From contig JAMONP010000018.1 of NCBI GenBank assembly GCA_027065695.1, positions 1 to 64,000 of the forward strand: a stretch of 64,000 nucleotides of DNA, in the 5' to 3' direction. The notes under the pieces are model-generated. The model was not told the DNA's origin and ran no database searches. It saw nothing but the letters and a program-made list of their open reading frames with translations. The first letter of the stretch is position 1, and each line of letters starts with the position of its first letter. Positions 6,888 through 27,029 of this stretch are shown here, in pieces. The position numbers were made by a program, and so were the translations under genes. This DNA comes from Desulfuromonadales bacterium. Its GTDB lineage: Bacteria > Desulfobacterota > Desulfuromonadia > Desulfuromonadales > BM103.

Positions 6888-7316
6888 TTAACCTTCCAAT
6901 TCCGCCAAACGATCACGCAACTCTTTTTCCTGCTGCCTTCTCTCGGTGATATCACGCATGATGGCGGCAACACCGAGAGGCTTGCCATTATCGTCCGACA
7001 ACAACACGATTGAGAATTCGGTGGACATTTTTGTGCCATTCTGGTGCATGGCCGGCACTGCCAGCATTTCGGTGCCATAGCGTGTCTCACCTGTAGCCAT
7101 GGTCTTGTGATAGCCAGCCCAGTGACGCTCCCTGAGTTTTTCAGGAATAATCAGATCGAGAGACTGACCGATCGCTTCTTTGGCGGTGCGGCCAAAAATC
7201 CGTTCGGCGCCCTGGTTCCATAAACGGATGATGCCATCACGATCTGCAAACAGGATCGCATCCGGGGCGAGAGTTAGAATCTGCTGGCTGAGAGTTGTGT
7301 TGTCGAAACTTGTCAT
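6888..7316 (-). CDS. Stand-alone PAS-domain protein at end of nar operon
   Basis: A 142-residue soluble protein consisting of one PAS domain (about residues 10-125) and a short charged coiled-coil tail (ITERRQQEKELRDRLAELEG). The PAS shows the usual ILFADRDGIIRLWNQGAERIFG beginning and an IMRDITERR end. No kinase, GGDEF or helix-turn-helix output is present. The start at 7316 is preceded by AGAGGAAA; an open frame extends further upstream but overlaps narK. It lies 29 bp after narK on the same strand, so it is probably co-transcribed with the nitrate genes. A role in sensing redox state or nitrate is an inference from position only. Confidence 0.8.
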   Translation of the reverse strand: MTSFDNTTLSQQILTLAPDAILFADRDGIIRLWNQGAERIFGRTAKEAIGQSLDLIIPEKLRERHWAGYHKTMATGETRYGTEMLAVPAMHQNGTKMSTEFSIVLLSDDNGKPLGVAAIMRDITERRQQEKELRDRLAELEG

Positions 7317-22123: not shown

Positions 22124-23297
22124 AGATGCCCTGAATTCAGTCCTGGAAACTGTGCAGCCCCTGACTCCTTGCGAAAGATTGACTGCCGATACAGGGGGAC
22201 TGGTTCTGGCTGAAGCCATCAAGGCTCATTGGGATATGCCACGCTGCGATAACTCTGCAATGGATGGTTATGCCATTGCAGGAAGATCGTGTGCAAAGGA
22301 CTCTCCGTTGGAAATCATCGGGGCCTCTTATGCGGGACACCCTTTCACCGGGACAGTCCCGGCGGGGAAATCGATCCGTATCACAACGGGCGCCGCTCTG
22401 CCAAACGGTGTGGAGACAGTCATCCCCGTAGAGGACTCAAAAGAAGAGGACGGACAGCTCTGCATCCAAACGTCATTTTCAACAGGACAGCATGTGCGCT
22501 TGCAGGGTGAGGAGTTTCAGGCCGGTGTGCAGCTTCTGCAAGCCGGGACTTTACTTAAAGCGGGTGATATCAGTCTACTTGCCAGCGCAGGTGTTGACCG
22601 GGTCAGGGTTTATCCGCGGCCACGGGTCGCAATTATTTCAACCGGTGACGAACTGATCGAACTGGGCGAAACACCCAGGCCGGATCAGGTTGTCAATTCC
22701 AACCTACATTTTCTGACCACACGATTACAGGAATGCGGCTGTGAACCTGTATGTATCGGCATCGGCAAGGATGATACGGCATCGCTGGATGAATTCATCG
22801 CTCAGGCGCTGGATACAGACCTGATCCTTTCTACAGGCGGCGTCTCTGTCGGCGAAAAAGACCATGTCCAGGAAGCCTTGTCCCGTCATCGTTTCCAAAA
22901 GCGATTCTGGAGGGTTGCCATCAAACCAGGCAAGCCTGTGCTCTTTGGCCTCCTCGAAGACAAGCCTTTTCTGGGCCTGCCGGGGAATCCGGCCTCAACA
23001 GCAATGACCTTTGAACTCTTTGCCAGACCCGCCCTGAAAAAAATGGCCGGCCATACAGATTGTCATCTGCAACAACGTAGTGGCATTCTTACCAGTGGAG
23101 TCAAGGGTGGTGGGGACCGACAGATCTTTCGCTGGTGTAAGCTGGGGTGGCACAACGGTCGCTACGAAGTTGACGTTCAGTCACATCAAGGGTCGGGTCA
23201 AAACCTCAGTATTCAAGGTGCTAATGCTCTGTTGACGATCCCGGTGGGGACATCACAAATTGATCGAGGAGAGATCGTTGAGGTTTTCTTGTTGTAA
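22110..23297 (+). CDS. moeA: Molybdopterin molybdenumtransferase
   Basis: Inserts molybdate into adenylated molybdopterin, the last step before MobA. The 395-residue product has the MoeA domain order: PRCDNSAMDGYA near residue 46, the MoCF-binding domain with STGDEL and STGGVSVGEKDHV, then LPGNPASTAMTFELF. Two adjacent ATGs (22107 and 22110) are possible; the second has AGGAGG 6 bp upstream. The stop codon lies inside the left terminal repeat of a 147-bp element, so the natural C-terminus may have been altered by a few residues. Confidence 0.94.
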   Translation: MLPYKDALNSVLETVQPLTPCERLTADTGGLVLAEAIKAHWDMPRCDNSAMDGYAIAGRSCAKDSPLEIIGASYAGHPFTGTVPAGKSIRITTGAALPNGVETVIPVEDSKEEDGQLCIQTSFSTGQHVRLQGEEFQAGVQLLQAGTLLKAGDISLLASAGVDRVRVYPRPRVAIISTGDELIELGETPRPDQVVNSNLHFLTTRLQECGCEPVCIGIGKDDTASLDEFIAQALDTDLILSTGGVSVGEKDHVQEALSRHRFQKRFWRVAIKPGKPVLFGLLEDKPFLGLPGNPASTAMTFELFARPALKKMAGHTDCHLQQRSGILTSGVKGGGDRQIFRWCKLGWHNGRYEVDVQSHQGSGQNLSIQGANALLTIPVGTSQIDRGEIVEVFLL

Positions 23298-23440
23298 CTT
23301 CAGCGCCTATGCTTAAACCATTAAAAACACCCCCCTGCTCGTGATACTCGCTTCCCCCCTGTAAAACAGGGGGGATTGAGAGTCTGAATTCCCGCTTACA
23401 CCCTCGGGAATGACGATCTTTAACTGCAAGCTGAAGTTAC
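23294..23440 (+). repeat. 147-bp MITE-like repeat, copy B, with intact terminal inverted repeats
   Basis: Ends are GTAACTTCAGC (23294-23304) and its exact inverse GCTGAAGTTAC (23430-23440). Length and orientation equal the copy at 237-383. Internally it contains CCCCCCTGCTCGTG and a run-flanked CCCCCCTGTAAAACAGGGGGG hairpin. The moeA stop TAA (23295-23297) is supplied by the left end. Confidence 0.8.
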
Positions 23441-23510: not shown

Positions 23511-23539
23511 TTGACCCCACTCGGTAATCTATGTATCAT
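23511..23539 (+). promoter_or_regulatory. Sigma-70-type promoter of the proVWX leader
   Basis: TTGACC and TATCAT are separated by exactly 17 bp. A start site near 23546 would begin the transcript only 5 bases before the GGTGATG stem described next, about 325 bp ahead of proV. Confidence 0.6.
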
Positions 23540-23550
23540 TGCTTTGCTAA

Positions 23551-23697
23551 GGTGATGCCCTGCCAGGGTATTCCATCCTTGTCCCGCAAGGCCATCGTCA
23601 AGAACATCACCCCGAGTGATGCTTCACAGATCGCCTTTCCTTACAGAGTTGCGCTTGAGTCTGCTTTCCCGGCAGAACGGGTCGCGGGTTGCTCTGT
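23551..23697 (+). ncRNA. Candidate structured leader RNA upstream of the glycine betaine importer
   Basis: GGTGATG (23551-23557) pairs with CATCACC (23605-23611), enclosing two small hairpins: CCCTG-CC-AGGG and CCTTG-TCCCG-CAAGG. The same CATCAC can instead pair with GTGATG at 23616-23621 across a 5-base loop, so two mutually exclusive folds exist. Further on, ACAGAG (23643-23648) pairs with CTCTGT (23692-23697) around TCTGC-N7-GCAGA. It does not fit the riboswitch classes I can recall. The same stretch is also an open reading frame, so the RNA interpretation is tentative. Confidence 0.35.
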
Positions 23698-23710
23698 CTT
23701 TAAAAAATAA
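23555..23710 (+). CDS. Possible 51-residue small protein in the proV leader
   Basis: An ATG directly after the leader promoter opens a frame ending in TAA at 23708-23710. The predicted peptide begins MPCQGIPSLSRKAIVKNITP and ends RVAGCSVFKK; it is basic, has two cysteines, and has no membrane segment. AAGG lies only 2 bp before the ATG, a poor spacing. I do not recognise it. It overlaps the hairpins listed for the leader; it could be a leader peptide, a real small gene or chance. Confidence 0.25.
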   Translation: MPCQGIPSLSRKAIVKNITPSDASQIAFPYRVALESAFPAERVAGCSVFKK

Positions 23711-23869
23711 ATTTACGACGATTCTTGGGGCACTGCTGATTGCAGACGACCACCTTCTCTTCTGTTCACTTTAGGCCGTAACCACAGGTGCAACTTCCGC
23801 TTACCCGCAAGCTGTTTCACATAGTTACCCCGGAGAATCATGTATAAAGATGATTTTTAAGGAGAAAAA

Positions 23870-25099
23870 ATGTCACAAGAGATCAAGGTCTCTGTTAAAA
23901 ACCTATTCAAAGTCTTCGGTCCTCACCCGAAAAAAGCTATGGGTCTGCTTGAACAAGGCTTGGATAAAGAAGCGATTTTCGAAAAGATCGAAACAACAAT
24001 CGGTGTACAGAATGCCAGCTTCGAAATCTATACCGGTGAGATTTTCGTTATTATGGGACTTTCCGGTTCCGGAAAATCGACCATGGTGCGGATGATCAAC
24101 CGCTTGATTGAACCGACCGCCGGACAGGTGTTTATCGATGGCGAAGATATCGTCAGCATGAGCAATGACGAGTTGGTCAAGATGCGGCGCAAGAAAATGA
24201 GTATGGTTTTTCAATCCTTTGCCCTGATGCCGCACATGACGGTTCTGCAGAATGCAGCCTTTGGGCTTGAGATGGACGGCATCGATAAACTGACCCGTGA
24301 AGCACGGGCACTGCAGGCCTTGGAACAGGTTGGCCTGGAGGCCTGGGCAGGCAGCATGCCGAATGAACTCTCCGGTGGCATGCAGCAGAGGGTCGGTCTG
24401 GCTCGCGGTTTGGCGGTTGATCCAGATATTCTGTTGATGGACGAAGCTTTCTCAGCGCTTGACCCTCTGATTCGTACTGAAATGCAGGATGAACTCCTTA
24501 AGCTACAAGCAAAGGCGAAACGAACTATCGTCTTTATCTCCCACGATCTTGATGAAGCAATGCGCATCGGTGACCGGATTGCCATCATGGAAGGGGGCAA
24601 AGTAGTACAGGTAGGGACACCGGAAGAAATCCTGCAAAACCCGGCCGATGATTACGTGCGTGCCTTCTTCCGTGGCGTCGACCCGACCAACATTCTCACC
24701 GCTGGCGACATTGCCACTGACACTCAGGTCACCATTATCATCACCGATGGCAAAAACCCGCGCGCTGCCTTACAAAGACTGATTAAGAATGACCGTGATT
24801 ATGCTTATGTCATTGACAGCAACCGTATTTTCAAAGGGATTGTCTCAACAGATTCTTTGCGTGATCTGATTGACTCTCCGGATCAGCCGCAGTTGATTGC
24901 CAACGCCTACCTTGATGATGTCGTGCCAGCACATGCAAACGATTCAATGCAGGACATTCTTCCCGAAGTGGCAAGCCATTCCTGGCCACTACCGGTTCTC
25001 AAAGATGACAAGGAGTATGTAGGCGTCGTCTCAAAAAACCTCTTTCTGCGCACCCTGCACCGAAGCGAACAAGAAGACTCAACGGCAGCGACTGCCTGA
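23870..25099 (+). CDS. proV: Glycine betaine/proline ABC transporter, ATP-binding protein
   Basis: ATPase of an osmoprotectant importer, 409 residues. It has the ProV/OpuAA N-terminal extension, Walker A GLSGSGKST near residue 62, signature LSGGMQQRVG near residue 166 and Walker B ILLMDEAFSALD. About residues 280-395 form paired CBS domains, which in this family sense ionic strength or nucleotides. AAGGAG precedes the ATG. The three importer genes follow in order proV, proW, proX with gaps of 27 and 43 bp. Confidence 0.93.
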   Translation: MSQEIKVSVKNLFKVFGPHPKKAMGLLEQGLDKEAIFEKIETTIGVQNASFEIYTGEIFVIMGLSGSGKSTMVRMINRLIEPTAGQVFIDGEDIVSMSNDELVKMRRKKMSMVFQSFALMPHMTVLQNAAFGLEMDGIDKLTREARALQALEQVGLEAWAGSMPNELSGGMQQRVGLARGLAVDPDILLMDEAFSALDPLIRTEMQDELLKLQAKAKRTIVFISHDLDEAMRIGDRIAIMEGGKVVQVGTPEEILQNPADDYVRAFFRGVDPTNILTAGDIATDTQVTIIITDGKNPRAALQRLIKNDRDYAYVIDSNRIFKGIVSTDSLRDLIDSPDQPQLIANAYLDDVVPAHANDSMQDILPEVASHSWPLPVLKDDKEYVGVVSKNLFLRTLHRSEQEDSTAATA

Positions 25100-25126: not shown

Positions 25127-25966
25127 ATGCGAATTTTCAATTTTGATGAACAGCTGATACCTCTTGATGAATGGGTACAAACCGCCGTTGACTGGACGGT
25201 CCTTAACTATCGCGACTTCTTTCAGGTGATCAAGGTGCCGGTTGAACTCAGTCTGGAAGCCCTGGAATGGTTCTTTGCCACCCTGCCGCCCTTCGTAGTG
25301 ATCATGCTTTTTGCTCTTGCCGCCTGGCGTTATACTGGCAAAAGAGTGACTGTTTTTACGGTTCTCTCATTCCTGCTGGTTGGTTATCTCGGCCTCTGGG
25401 ATGACACTATGACAACCTTGTCGATGGTGATCTGCTCGGTATTGTTTTGCGCTATTGCCGGGATACCTCTCGGCATCATGGCGGGACGCAGTGATCGTTT
25501 CGAAATGTTCCTGCGCCCCTTCCTCGATGCCATGCAAACAACCCCGGCCTTCGTCTACCTGATTCCTGTGGTCATGCTCTTCAGCATCGGTACAGTCTCC
25601 GGTATCCTGGCAACCATCGTTTTTGCCTTACCACCAATTATTCGCCTGACCAGCCTCGGGATTCGCCAGGTTCACCCGGAACTGGTTGAAGCGGCACTCG
25701 CCTTTGGGGCTACCCCTTGGCAGGTTTTACGCAAGGTACAGTTCCCTCTCGCCATGCCCTCAGTCATGGCCGGGCTCAATCAGACCATTATGATGGCTTT
25801 GTCGATGGTCGTGATTGCGGCATTGATCGGCGCTGGTGGTCTTGGAAATCCGGTTGTGCAAGGTTTGAATACTCTGGAGATCGGCCTGGCCACCATCGGT
25901 GGTTTGTCGATTGTTCTCCTGGCAATGGTGCTTGATCGGATCACCCAGGGGATCTCTCAAAAGTAA
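25127..25966 (+). CDS. proW: Glycine betaine/proline ABC transporter, permease
   Basis: Inner-membrane permease, 279 residues. The N-terminal 50 residues are soluble and amphipathic, as in E. coli ProW though shorter; they are followed by about six to seven membrane segments. The EAA loop is EAALAFGATPWQVLRKVQFPLAMPSV near residue 188, and the QTTPAFVYLIPVVMLF segment near residue 140 is characteristic of the family. AAGGAG lies 13 bp before the ATG, rather far. Confidence 0.93.
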   Translation: MRIFNFDEQLIPLDEWVQTAVDWTVLNYRDFFQVIKVPVELSLEALEWFFATLPPFVVIMLFALAAWRYTGKRVTVFTVLSFLLVGYLGLWDDTMTTLSMVICSVLFCAIAGIPLGIMAGRSDRFEMFLRPFLDAMQTTPAFVYLIPVVMLFSIGTVSGILATIVFALPPIIRLTSLGIRQVHPELVEAALAFGATPWQVLRKVQFPLAMPSVMAGLNQTIMMALSMVVIAALIGAGGLGNPVVQGLNTLEIGLATIGGLSIVLLAMVLDRITQGISQK

Positions 25967-26009: not shown

Positions 26010-27029
26010 ATGAAACGCATTTTATTAGTTCTACTGATGTTAGCTCTAACGATGCCAGCTTTAGCTGACCAGCAAAAGCCCGGCAAAGGCATCAAAGTTC
26101 AACCTGCCCGCGCAACCTGGAATACAGGCTACTTCCAGGAAGCCCTGGTAAGAGCAGGCCTGAAAGAGCTTGGCTACAATGTCAAGAAGCCTAAAGAGCT
26201 ACAGAACCCGCTCTTCTACCAAGCACTCGCTCTGGGTGATCTCGACTACTGGACCAACGGCTGGTTCCCTGTCCACGATGGACAAATGCCGAAGAATTTT
26301 TACGAGAAGGGTGAAAAAGTCGGCTACGTTGTCAAAGCTGGCGGCTTGCAAGGCTACATGGTCTCTAAAAAAGAAGTGGAAAAATACAACATCCAATCGC
26401 TTGCAGACTTCAATCGCCCGGAGGTCAAAGAAGCCTTCGATGCCAATGGCGACGGCAAGGCTGACCTGACTGCCTGCCCTGCCGGTTGGGGCTGTGAGGC
26501 CACCATTGCTCATCATATGAAAGCCTATGGTCTTGGAGATGATATCAATCTGATCAAAGCATCCTACTCGGCAAGCATGGCTGACGTCCTGGCCCGCTAC
26601 AAGTCCGGCGAACCAGCCTTCTTCTACACCTGGGCACCAAACTGGACAATTTTCAAGCTCAAGCCAGGCGAAGACGTGGTGTGGATGAATGTTCCTGAGA
26701 TCAAGCCTACGGAAGCGCAAATGCCACAGGTGGATCGTCTGACGATGAGCGGCGTTACCGGAGCAGTCAGTGATCCGATCAAACTCGGCTTTGTGGCTGC
26801 CGATATCCAGATTGTTGCCAACAAAGAATTCCTCGCCGCGAATCCTGCAGCGAAAGCTTTCTTCAAGGTCTTCACCTTGCCCCTCGGTGATATCAATGAG
26901 CAGAACACCAAGATGCAGGAAGGCGAGAAATCACAGAAGGATATCGAGCGACACGTCAAGGAATGGATTGCCAAGCATCAGGAGAAATGGAACGGTTGGC
27001 TTGAAGTAGCTCGCAAAGCAGCTTTGTAA
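26010..27029 (+). CDS. proX: Glycine betaine/proline ABC transporter, binding protein
   Basis: Periplasmic binding protein, 339 residues, with a clear signal peptide (LLMLALTMPALA, cleavage near residue 19). RATWNTGYFQEAL near residue 35, DYWTNGWFPVHDG near residue 78 and the CPAGWGCEATI stretch near residue 155 match E. coli ProX, including the tryptophans that box the trimethylammonium group and the two cysteines. It ends the operon, 21 bp before a strong terminator. Confidence 0.94.
   Translation: MKRILLVLLMLALTMPALADQQKPGKGIKVQPARATWNTGYFQEALVRAGLKELGYNVKKPKELQNPLFYQALALGDLDYWTNGWFPVHDGQMPKNFYEKGEKVGYVVKAGGLQGYMVSKKEVEKYNIQSLADFNRPEVKEAFDANGDGKADLTACPAGWGCEATIAHHMKAYGLGDDINLIKASYSASMADVLARYKSGEPAFFYTWAPNWTIFKLKPGEDVVWMNVPEIKPTEAQMPQVDRLTMSGVTGAVSDPIKLGFVAADIQIVANKEFLAANPAAKAFFKVFTLPLGDINEQNTKMQEGEKSQKDIERHVKEWIAKHQEKWNGWLEVARKAAL

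Follow-up and report, generated by a model that had tools for sequence, protein, structure and literature searches.

A conserved, riboswitch-like leader RNA, probably of a new class, upstream of osmoprotectant genes in the Desulfuromonadales

The window, i.e. the whole stretch of 64,000 nt that was analysed, comes from a Desulfuromonadales draft genome of 108 contigs. It carries a proVWX operon for glycine betaine import, and a leader of ∼320 nt lies in the interval between a moeA-like gene (end at 23297) and the proV start codon (23870). The features to which we refer below are:

23511-23539, + strand: sigma-70-type promoter TTGACC-17-TATCAT, 10 of 12 consensus matches
23511-23516, + strand: promoter -35 element TTGACC, followed by the 17-bp spacer
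23534-23539, + strand: promoter -10 element TATCAT, preceded by the 17-bp spacer
23549-23700, + strand: whole conserved RNA, ∼152 nt, positions 1-153 of covariance model R1 (163 bits; the window RNA is a training member of R1)
23549-23580, + strand: helix P1, 23549-23561 with 23565-23580, a hairpin with an internal loop; compensatory changes
23582-23587, + strand: linker TCCCGC, in which CCC 23583-23585 is the proposed pseudoknot partner of GGG 23686-23688
23588-23637, + strand: helix P2, 23588-23596 with 23629-23637, around the hairpin GAACATCAC/GTGATGCTTC (23602-23625); covariation
23644-23696, + strand: helix P3 with the conserved strand TCGCGGGT; covariation
23644-23649 with 23691-23696, + strand: P3 outer helix, CAGAGT with GCTCTG
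23651-23653 with 23683-23685, + strand: P3 inner helix, GCG with CGC
23654-23663 with 23673-23682, + strand: P3 distal stem
23727-23745, + strand: second, weaker conserved element GGGGCACTGCTGATTGCAG with a small hairpin CTGC:GCAG (23733-23736 with 23742-23745); 7 double-change cells in 2 pairs
23859-23872, + strand: proV Shine-Dalgarno sequence AAGGAG and ATG
23870-25099, + strand: proV, ATP-binding protein of a glycine betaine/L-proline ABC transporter, the regulated gene (NCBIfam PRK10070, 533.7 bits, cut-off 444)
25127-25966, + strand: proW, permease, regulated operon; same gene order behind the RNA in relatives
26010-27029, + strand: proX, substrate-binding protein, regulated operon; same gene order behind the RNA in relatives

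In addition, a hairpin (CCCCCCTGTAAAACAGGGGGGATT) and more palindromic sequence lie 3' of the moeA-like gene (window 23328-23385) and are probably the terminator region of that gene.

The near-consensus sigma-70 promoter with 17-bp spacing that had been recognised in the preliminary description holds up. Chance alone would give about one such site in this region (mean 0.9); nevertheless, across relatives TTGAC keeps a fixed spacing ahead of the RNA, and we therefore conclude that the promoter is real. Of 102 copies, 71 have the motif within 60 nt 5' of the RNA, in most cases 36-39 nt upstream of the RNA's first base, while the 60 nt 3' of the RNA, used as a control, contain it in none. Promoter scores of 9 or more were obtained for 54% of the copies versus 4% of shuffles. 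From the promoter position, the predicted transcript start is at ∼23546, 3 nt upstream of P1. Sequence conservation sets in just past this expected start and continues to ∼23700, beyond which it drops. The leader, a folded non-coding RNA as detailed below, is located where the proVWX transcript is expected to begin.

How widely is this RNA distributed? An initial DNA search with the leader found it in 18 of 58 relatives, several of them belonging to other families within the order. In the collection of named genomes, the near relatives are Desulfuromusa kysingii, Malonomonas rubra and Desulfuromonadales MAGs, which identifies the order as Desulfuromonadales. Covariance model R1 gave matches in 64 of 136 genomes of this order; the remaining class genomes sampled had none. 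The weaker R1 matches constitute a second type (type II), mostly located before KamA genes. A model built from 14 type II sequences only, with no proV-type members (R2), detected the RNA in 66 of the 136 genomes, and it also recognised the window RNA, which is outside its training set, at E = 3.3e-9. Taken together, R1 and R2 place the RNA in at least 75 of the 136 Desulfuromonadales genomes, and many of the order's families share it. When 395 genomes spread over the phylum were searched, the sole match was again inside the order; because filters were stricter in the large searches and E-values are rough, absence outside the order is provisional. A pattern scan of named genomes yielded nine scattered exact matches outside Desulfuromonadales, which we regard as chance because none contained the RNA by model. 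The presence of the RNA was associated with the presence of proX (counts 52/23/12/49 in 136 genomes, Fisher p = 6e-9, uncorrected for kinship).

The RNA consists of three hairpin domains (P1, P2 and P3), a linker and a likely pseudoknot. The evidence for this structure is comparative: the folding energy of the single leader (23540-23870), a check proposed in the preliminary description, is unremarkable (z = -0.96) and uninformative alone. Conservation without compensatory changes, which by the same description would speak against an RNA, is not what we observed. In the type I structure alignment (17 sequences), both sides had changed in 19 of 53 pairs, compared to 4-7 in slid controls and to 0 of 500 shuffles, and 95% of the pair cells held standard pairs versus 38-44% after sliding. 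For example, the P1 column pair 5-27 changes from C-G to U-A in seven sequences, the P2 pair 44-85 occurs as six pair types, and the P3 pair 100-149 changes from A-U to G-C. In type II (14 sequences), both sides had likewise changed in 19 of 53 pairs (1-7 in slid controls), and the P3 inner helix is GCAC:GTGC. When all possible helices were scanned without a prior structure in 37 full leaders, P2, P3, the P2 hairpin and P1 took the top ranks, P2 being the strongest covarying helix. The conserved unpaired and pseudoknot nucleotides are TCCCGC, TCGCGGGT and a CCCCG loop. The CCCGC of the linker is complementary to the conserved GCGGG strand of P3, and the CCC:GGG pairing is present in 17 of 17 type I sequences, although its three G-C pairs hardly vary, which leaves its support by covariation weak. 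In type II, an added A-U pair is found in 13 of 14 sequences, and RNAalifold proposes the pseudoknot pairing unprompted. We regard the CCC:GGG pseudoknot as likely. In one genome, an RNA copy (L018/L089, G041:C184) stands before a decayed proV and an intact proX; its pseudoknot GGG is now GAA and part of P1 is gone, which makes it a natural loss-of-function control.

The switch between alternative hairpins that had been suggested for this leader fared unevenly. The pairing of CATCAC (23605-23610) with the downstream GTGATG (23616-23621) covaries, but the alternative with the upstream GGTGATG is not conserved: this stretch (23551-23557) is GGTGACACC or GGCGACACC in relatives, where it forms P1. 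The GGTGATG/CATCAC switch is particular to this sequence and lacks support.

The genes behind the RNA were tallied by hand for roughly 100 copies, which had been picked by the RNA alone. About nine tenths stand before osmolyte genes, a coherent downstream gene set of the kind expected for a riboswitch. Approximately 50 copies precede proV (one of them the decayed proV), and ∼39 precede KamA-family genes, a family of aminomutases that includes ablAB; one copy each precedes a sucrose-phosphate synthase gene, a pair of NAGGN amidotransferase and synthetase genes and a gene for an EhuB-type ectoine binding protein, and one further copy precedes a loosely EhuB-like amino-acid ABC transporter. Representatives scored above curated cut-offs (TIGR02472, TIGR03104, TIGR03103, TIGR03820 with TIGR03827, TIGR02995 and PRK10070), and the remaining genes were assigned by BLAST to these representatives. 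Hence the same RNA precedes several unrelated osmoprotectant systems. It does so also within single genomes: before proV, kamA and ablAB in G001, before proV, sucrose-phosphate synthase and kamA in G111, and before proV and kamA in G051. In Pelobacter carbinolicus, salt tolerance has been proposed to rest on acetyl-beta-lysine made by ablAB (PMC3543383). The KamA proteins of two lineages, 358 and 391 aa long, score above the cut-off of TIGR00238, a subfamily model, and above that of no equivalog, so that beta-lysine, beta-glutamate or another product is possible. At five loci (L090, L095, L104, L107, L192), two different KamA-family genes follow a single RNA in tandem; their products may make an undescribed beta-amino-acid osmolyte. 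Among the copies found, none was seen before K+ or Na+ transporters.

Some ten copies are found at the ends of contigs or upstream of genes without an obvious osmolyte link (L087, L186, L189, L191 and the partial L105 and L106). L186 and L189 are good type II matches before genes with no evident osmolyte role, which by eye encode a 395-aa membrane-anchored SGNH-like protein and, 700 nt off, an adenylosuccinate-lyase-like protein. L191 has two RNA copies on the same strand ∼650 nt apart (G011:C173:6256-6413 and 7063-7218), with a 136-aa ORF between them, a tRNA gene nearby and downstream genes without an evident osmolyte link. The two partial copies in genome G083 (L105:3301-3401 and L106:2565-2680) comprise P1 and P2 only, with no P3, and one of them is located 5' of a gene whose product, judged by eye, resembles HipA; they may be decayed pieces, borrowed pieces or a different element.

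Most type I copies end 156-185 nt ahead of the start codon, and most type II copies about 190-205 nt ahead of it. This spacer contains the second, weaker conserved hairpin element (23727-23745), which is possibly part of the expression platform, and after it a C-rich, G-poor stretch (excess of C over G 0.20, ∼+40 to +75 past the RNA). Intrinsic terminators were found only sporadically in the leader spacers; most leaders have none, and none lies behind P3. Nor did we find a conserved partner that would mask the Shine-Dalgarno sequence, the partners varying from leader to leader.

Could the conserved block instead encode a small protein or a leader peptide (23531-23710 or 23555-23710)? The 51-codon frame of the preliminary description is indeed open here (59 codons from the ATG at 23531) and partly open in near relatives, but it is not a gene. 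Its start codon is present in 10 of 48 relatives and an in-frame stop interrupts it across the RNA in 29 of 47; substitutions relative to relatives outside the genus number 81/45/66 at codon positions 1, 2 and 3, with no third-position excess and no synonymous pattern; and one-base indels inside P3 and between P2 and P3 break the frame. The indels, missing start codons and in-frame stops indicate that the RNA block is not coding. Together with the base-pair compensation, they refute a peptide as the main cause of conservation and leave this reading an almost negligible chance. The preliminary description, which had left the choice between a new regulatory RNA, a leader peptide and a small protein, is therefore borne out in part: the RNA is strongly supported, the two peptide options are rejected. 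A free-standing, trans-acting small RNA that lies upstream of osmolyte genes by chance would also have a compact conserved fold, its own promoter and a drop of conservation past its end. We consider it very improbable, as it would be expected neither to lack a terminator behind P3 nor to keep a narrow range of distances to the start codon, and the several copies per genome, each ahead of a different osmolyte operon, are as in cis-regulation.

The same leader might be read by a protein, namely an RNA-binding regulator or an antiterminator for which the RNA is the binding site, and a regulon-wide leader with neither an evident terminator nor a Shine-Dalgarno mask would fit this. However, three helical domains with conserved unpaired and pseudoknot nucleotides over 150 nt look more like a receptor, and no candidate protein is known; we regard such a protein-read leader as rather improbable, though by a good deal the least so of the alternatives weighed here. 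That the RNA belongs, in divergent form, to a known class (c-di-AMP ydaO/yuaA, Na+-I DUF1646 or another Rfam family) is suggested by overlapping gene sets, since osmolyte genes such as ablA also have Na+-I and c-di-AMP riboswitches upstream (PMC9337991). Against it, no Rfam 15 family matched the window at gathering score and only unrelated, chance-level matches appeared up to E = 10, as the preliminary description had surmised in finding no riboswitch class that fits; 19 loci gave nothing at gathering score besides one tRNA; and true ydaO RNAs of the order are found by the standard model (RF00379, 5 of 58 relatives), where the loci read lie before kup or trkA-like genes. Divergent membership is thus scarcely probable. 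No description of this RNA was found in the literature, Weinberg et al. 2017 and supplementary alignments lying outside the search.

We therefore favour, with a probability of about 0.8, the view that the leader is a cis-regulatory, riboswitch-like RNA of an undescribed class that acts in osmotic stress, and it is likely that the RNA binds a small ligand or ion directly. The pseudoknotted three-domain part (23549-23700) would be the receptor. This receptor would read a common signal of osmotic state and not one osmolyte: between them, the regulated genes serve the import or synthesis of at least five different solutes, which renders a common signal likelier than feedback from a single solute. 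What might this signal be? The likeliest candidates, each with a chance of roughly one in three, are a monovalent cation, K+ or Na+, and, slightly behind it, c-di-AMP, whose cyclase is nearly universal in these genomes. Simple models with Na+ or c-di-AMP are weakened in that no RNA copy was seen ahead of a Na+ or K+ transporter. The receptor would then pass its state to the 156-185 nt that separate the RNA from the start codon, with their second hairpin and C-rich, G-poor segment. Because neither an intrinsic terminator nor a conserved Shine-Dalgarno mask was found, Rho-dependent termination or translation control are the candidate routes. As a whole, we lean slightly towards the new class being a general osmolyte switch of the Desulfuromonadales, serving the import and synthesis of at least five chemically different osmoprotectants and responding either to K+ or ionic strength or, as a second receptor class, to c-di-AMP.

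Only a few classes of RNA are known by which bacteria sense osmotic state. One RNA before genes for betaine import, ectoine import, acetyl-beta-lysine, sucrose and NAGGN points to a shared osmotic signal, and makes this signal directly accessible to a test in which the 152-nt RNA is probed with a handful of ions and nucleotides. The RNA would define an osmolyte regulon of the Desulfuromonadales, sediment bacteria important in sulfur and iron reduction, and it is probably a switch by which these bacteria cope with salt stress.

How does this RNA compare with known systems? Like our RNA, the c-di-AMP riboswitch (ydaO/yuaA, RF00379) is linked to osmotic genes, K+ genes being among those it controls, and the cyclase that makes its ligand is present here; the RF00379 model, however, did not match the window leader at any E up to 10 and has no match in this genome. 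Four canonical c-di-AMP riboswitches of relatives (L110-L113 in G016, G020, G021 and G057) lie before potassium uptake genes, three kup-like and one trkA-like. The cyclase domain is encoded in 53 of 58 relatives, this genome included; as ydaO riboswitches occur in 5 of the 58, c-di-AMP is probably both made and read in this order. The idea that the new RNA has replaced ydaO is unsupported, as the ydaO loci read control kup or trkA-like genes and the three ydaO genomes of the same family are all without proX. The Na+-I riboswitch (DUF1646 motif) resembles our RNA as a leader ahead of osmolyte genes, including ablA and eam, and in its osmotic stress biology, but it has two extended base-paired substructures and many ion-transporter or ATP synthase genes (PMC9337991); its model, provided that Rfam 15 includes the family, matched neither the window nor the 19 loci. 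Our RNA probably constitutes a new class, set apart from the proX and opuB motifs by taxa and described structure only. The proX motif (SRC-29-1) is likewise a riboswitch candidate ahead of a glycine betaine transporter gene, with 17 representatives mainly from Spiribacter and saltwater DNA, and its P2 masks the ribosome-binding site (PMC8632094); by description, our RNA differs in having no conserved mask, in belonging to another order with no overlap of taxa and in serving several osmolyte systems. Similarly, the opuB motif (SRC-50-1) is a leader RNA ahead of a compatible-solute ABC transporter, but it occurs mostly in Enterobacteriaceae, its P1 uses the Shine-Dalgarno sequence, and its ligand is believed to relate to shikimate/aromatic metabolism (PMC11109978).
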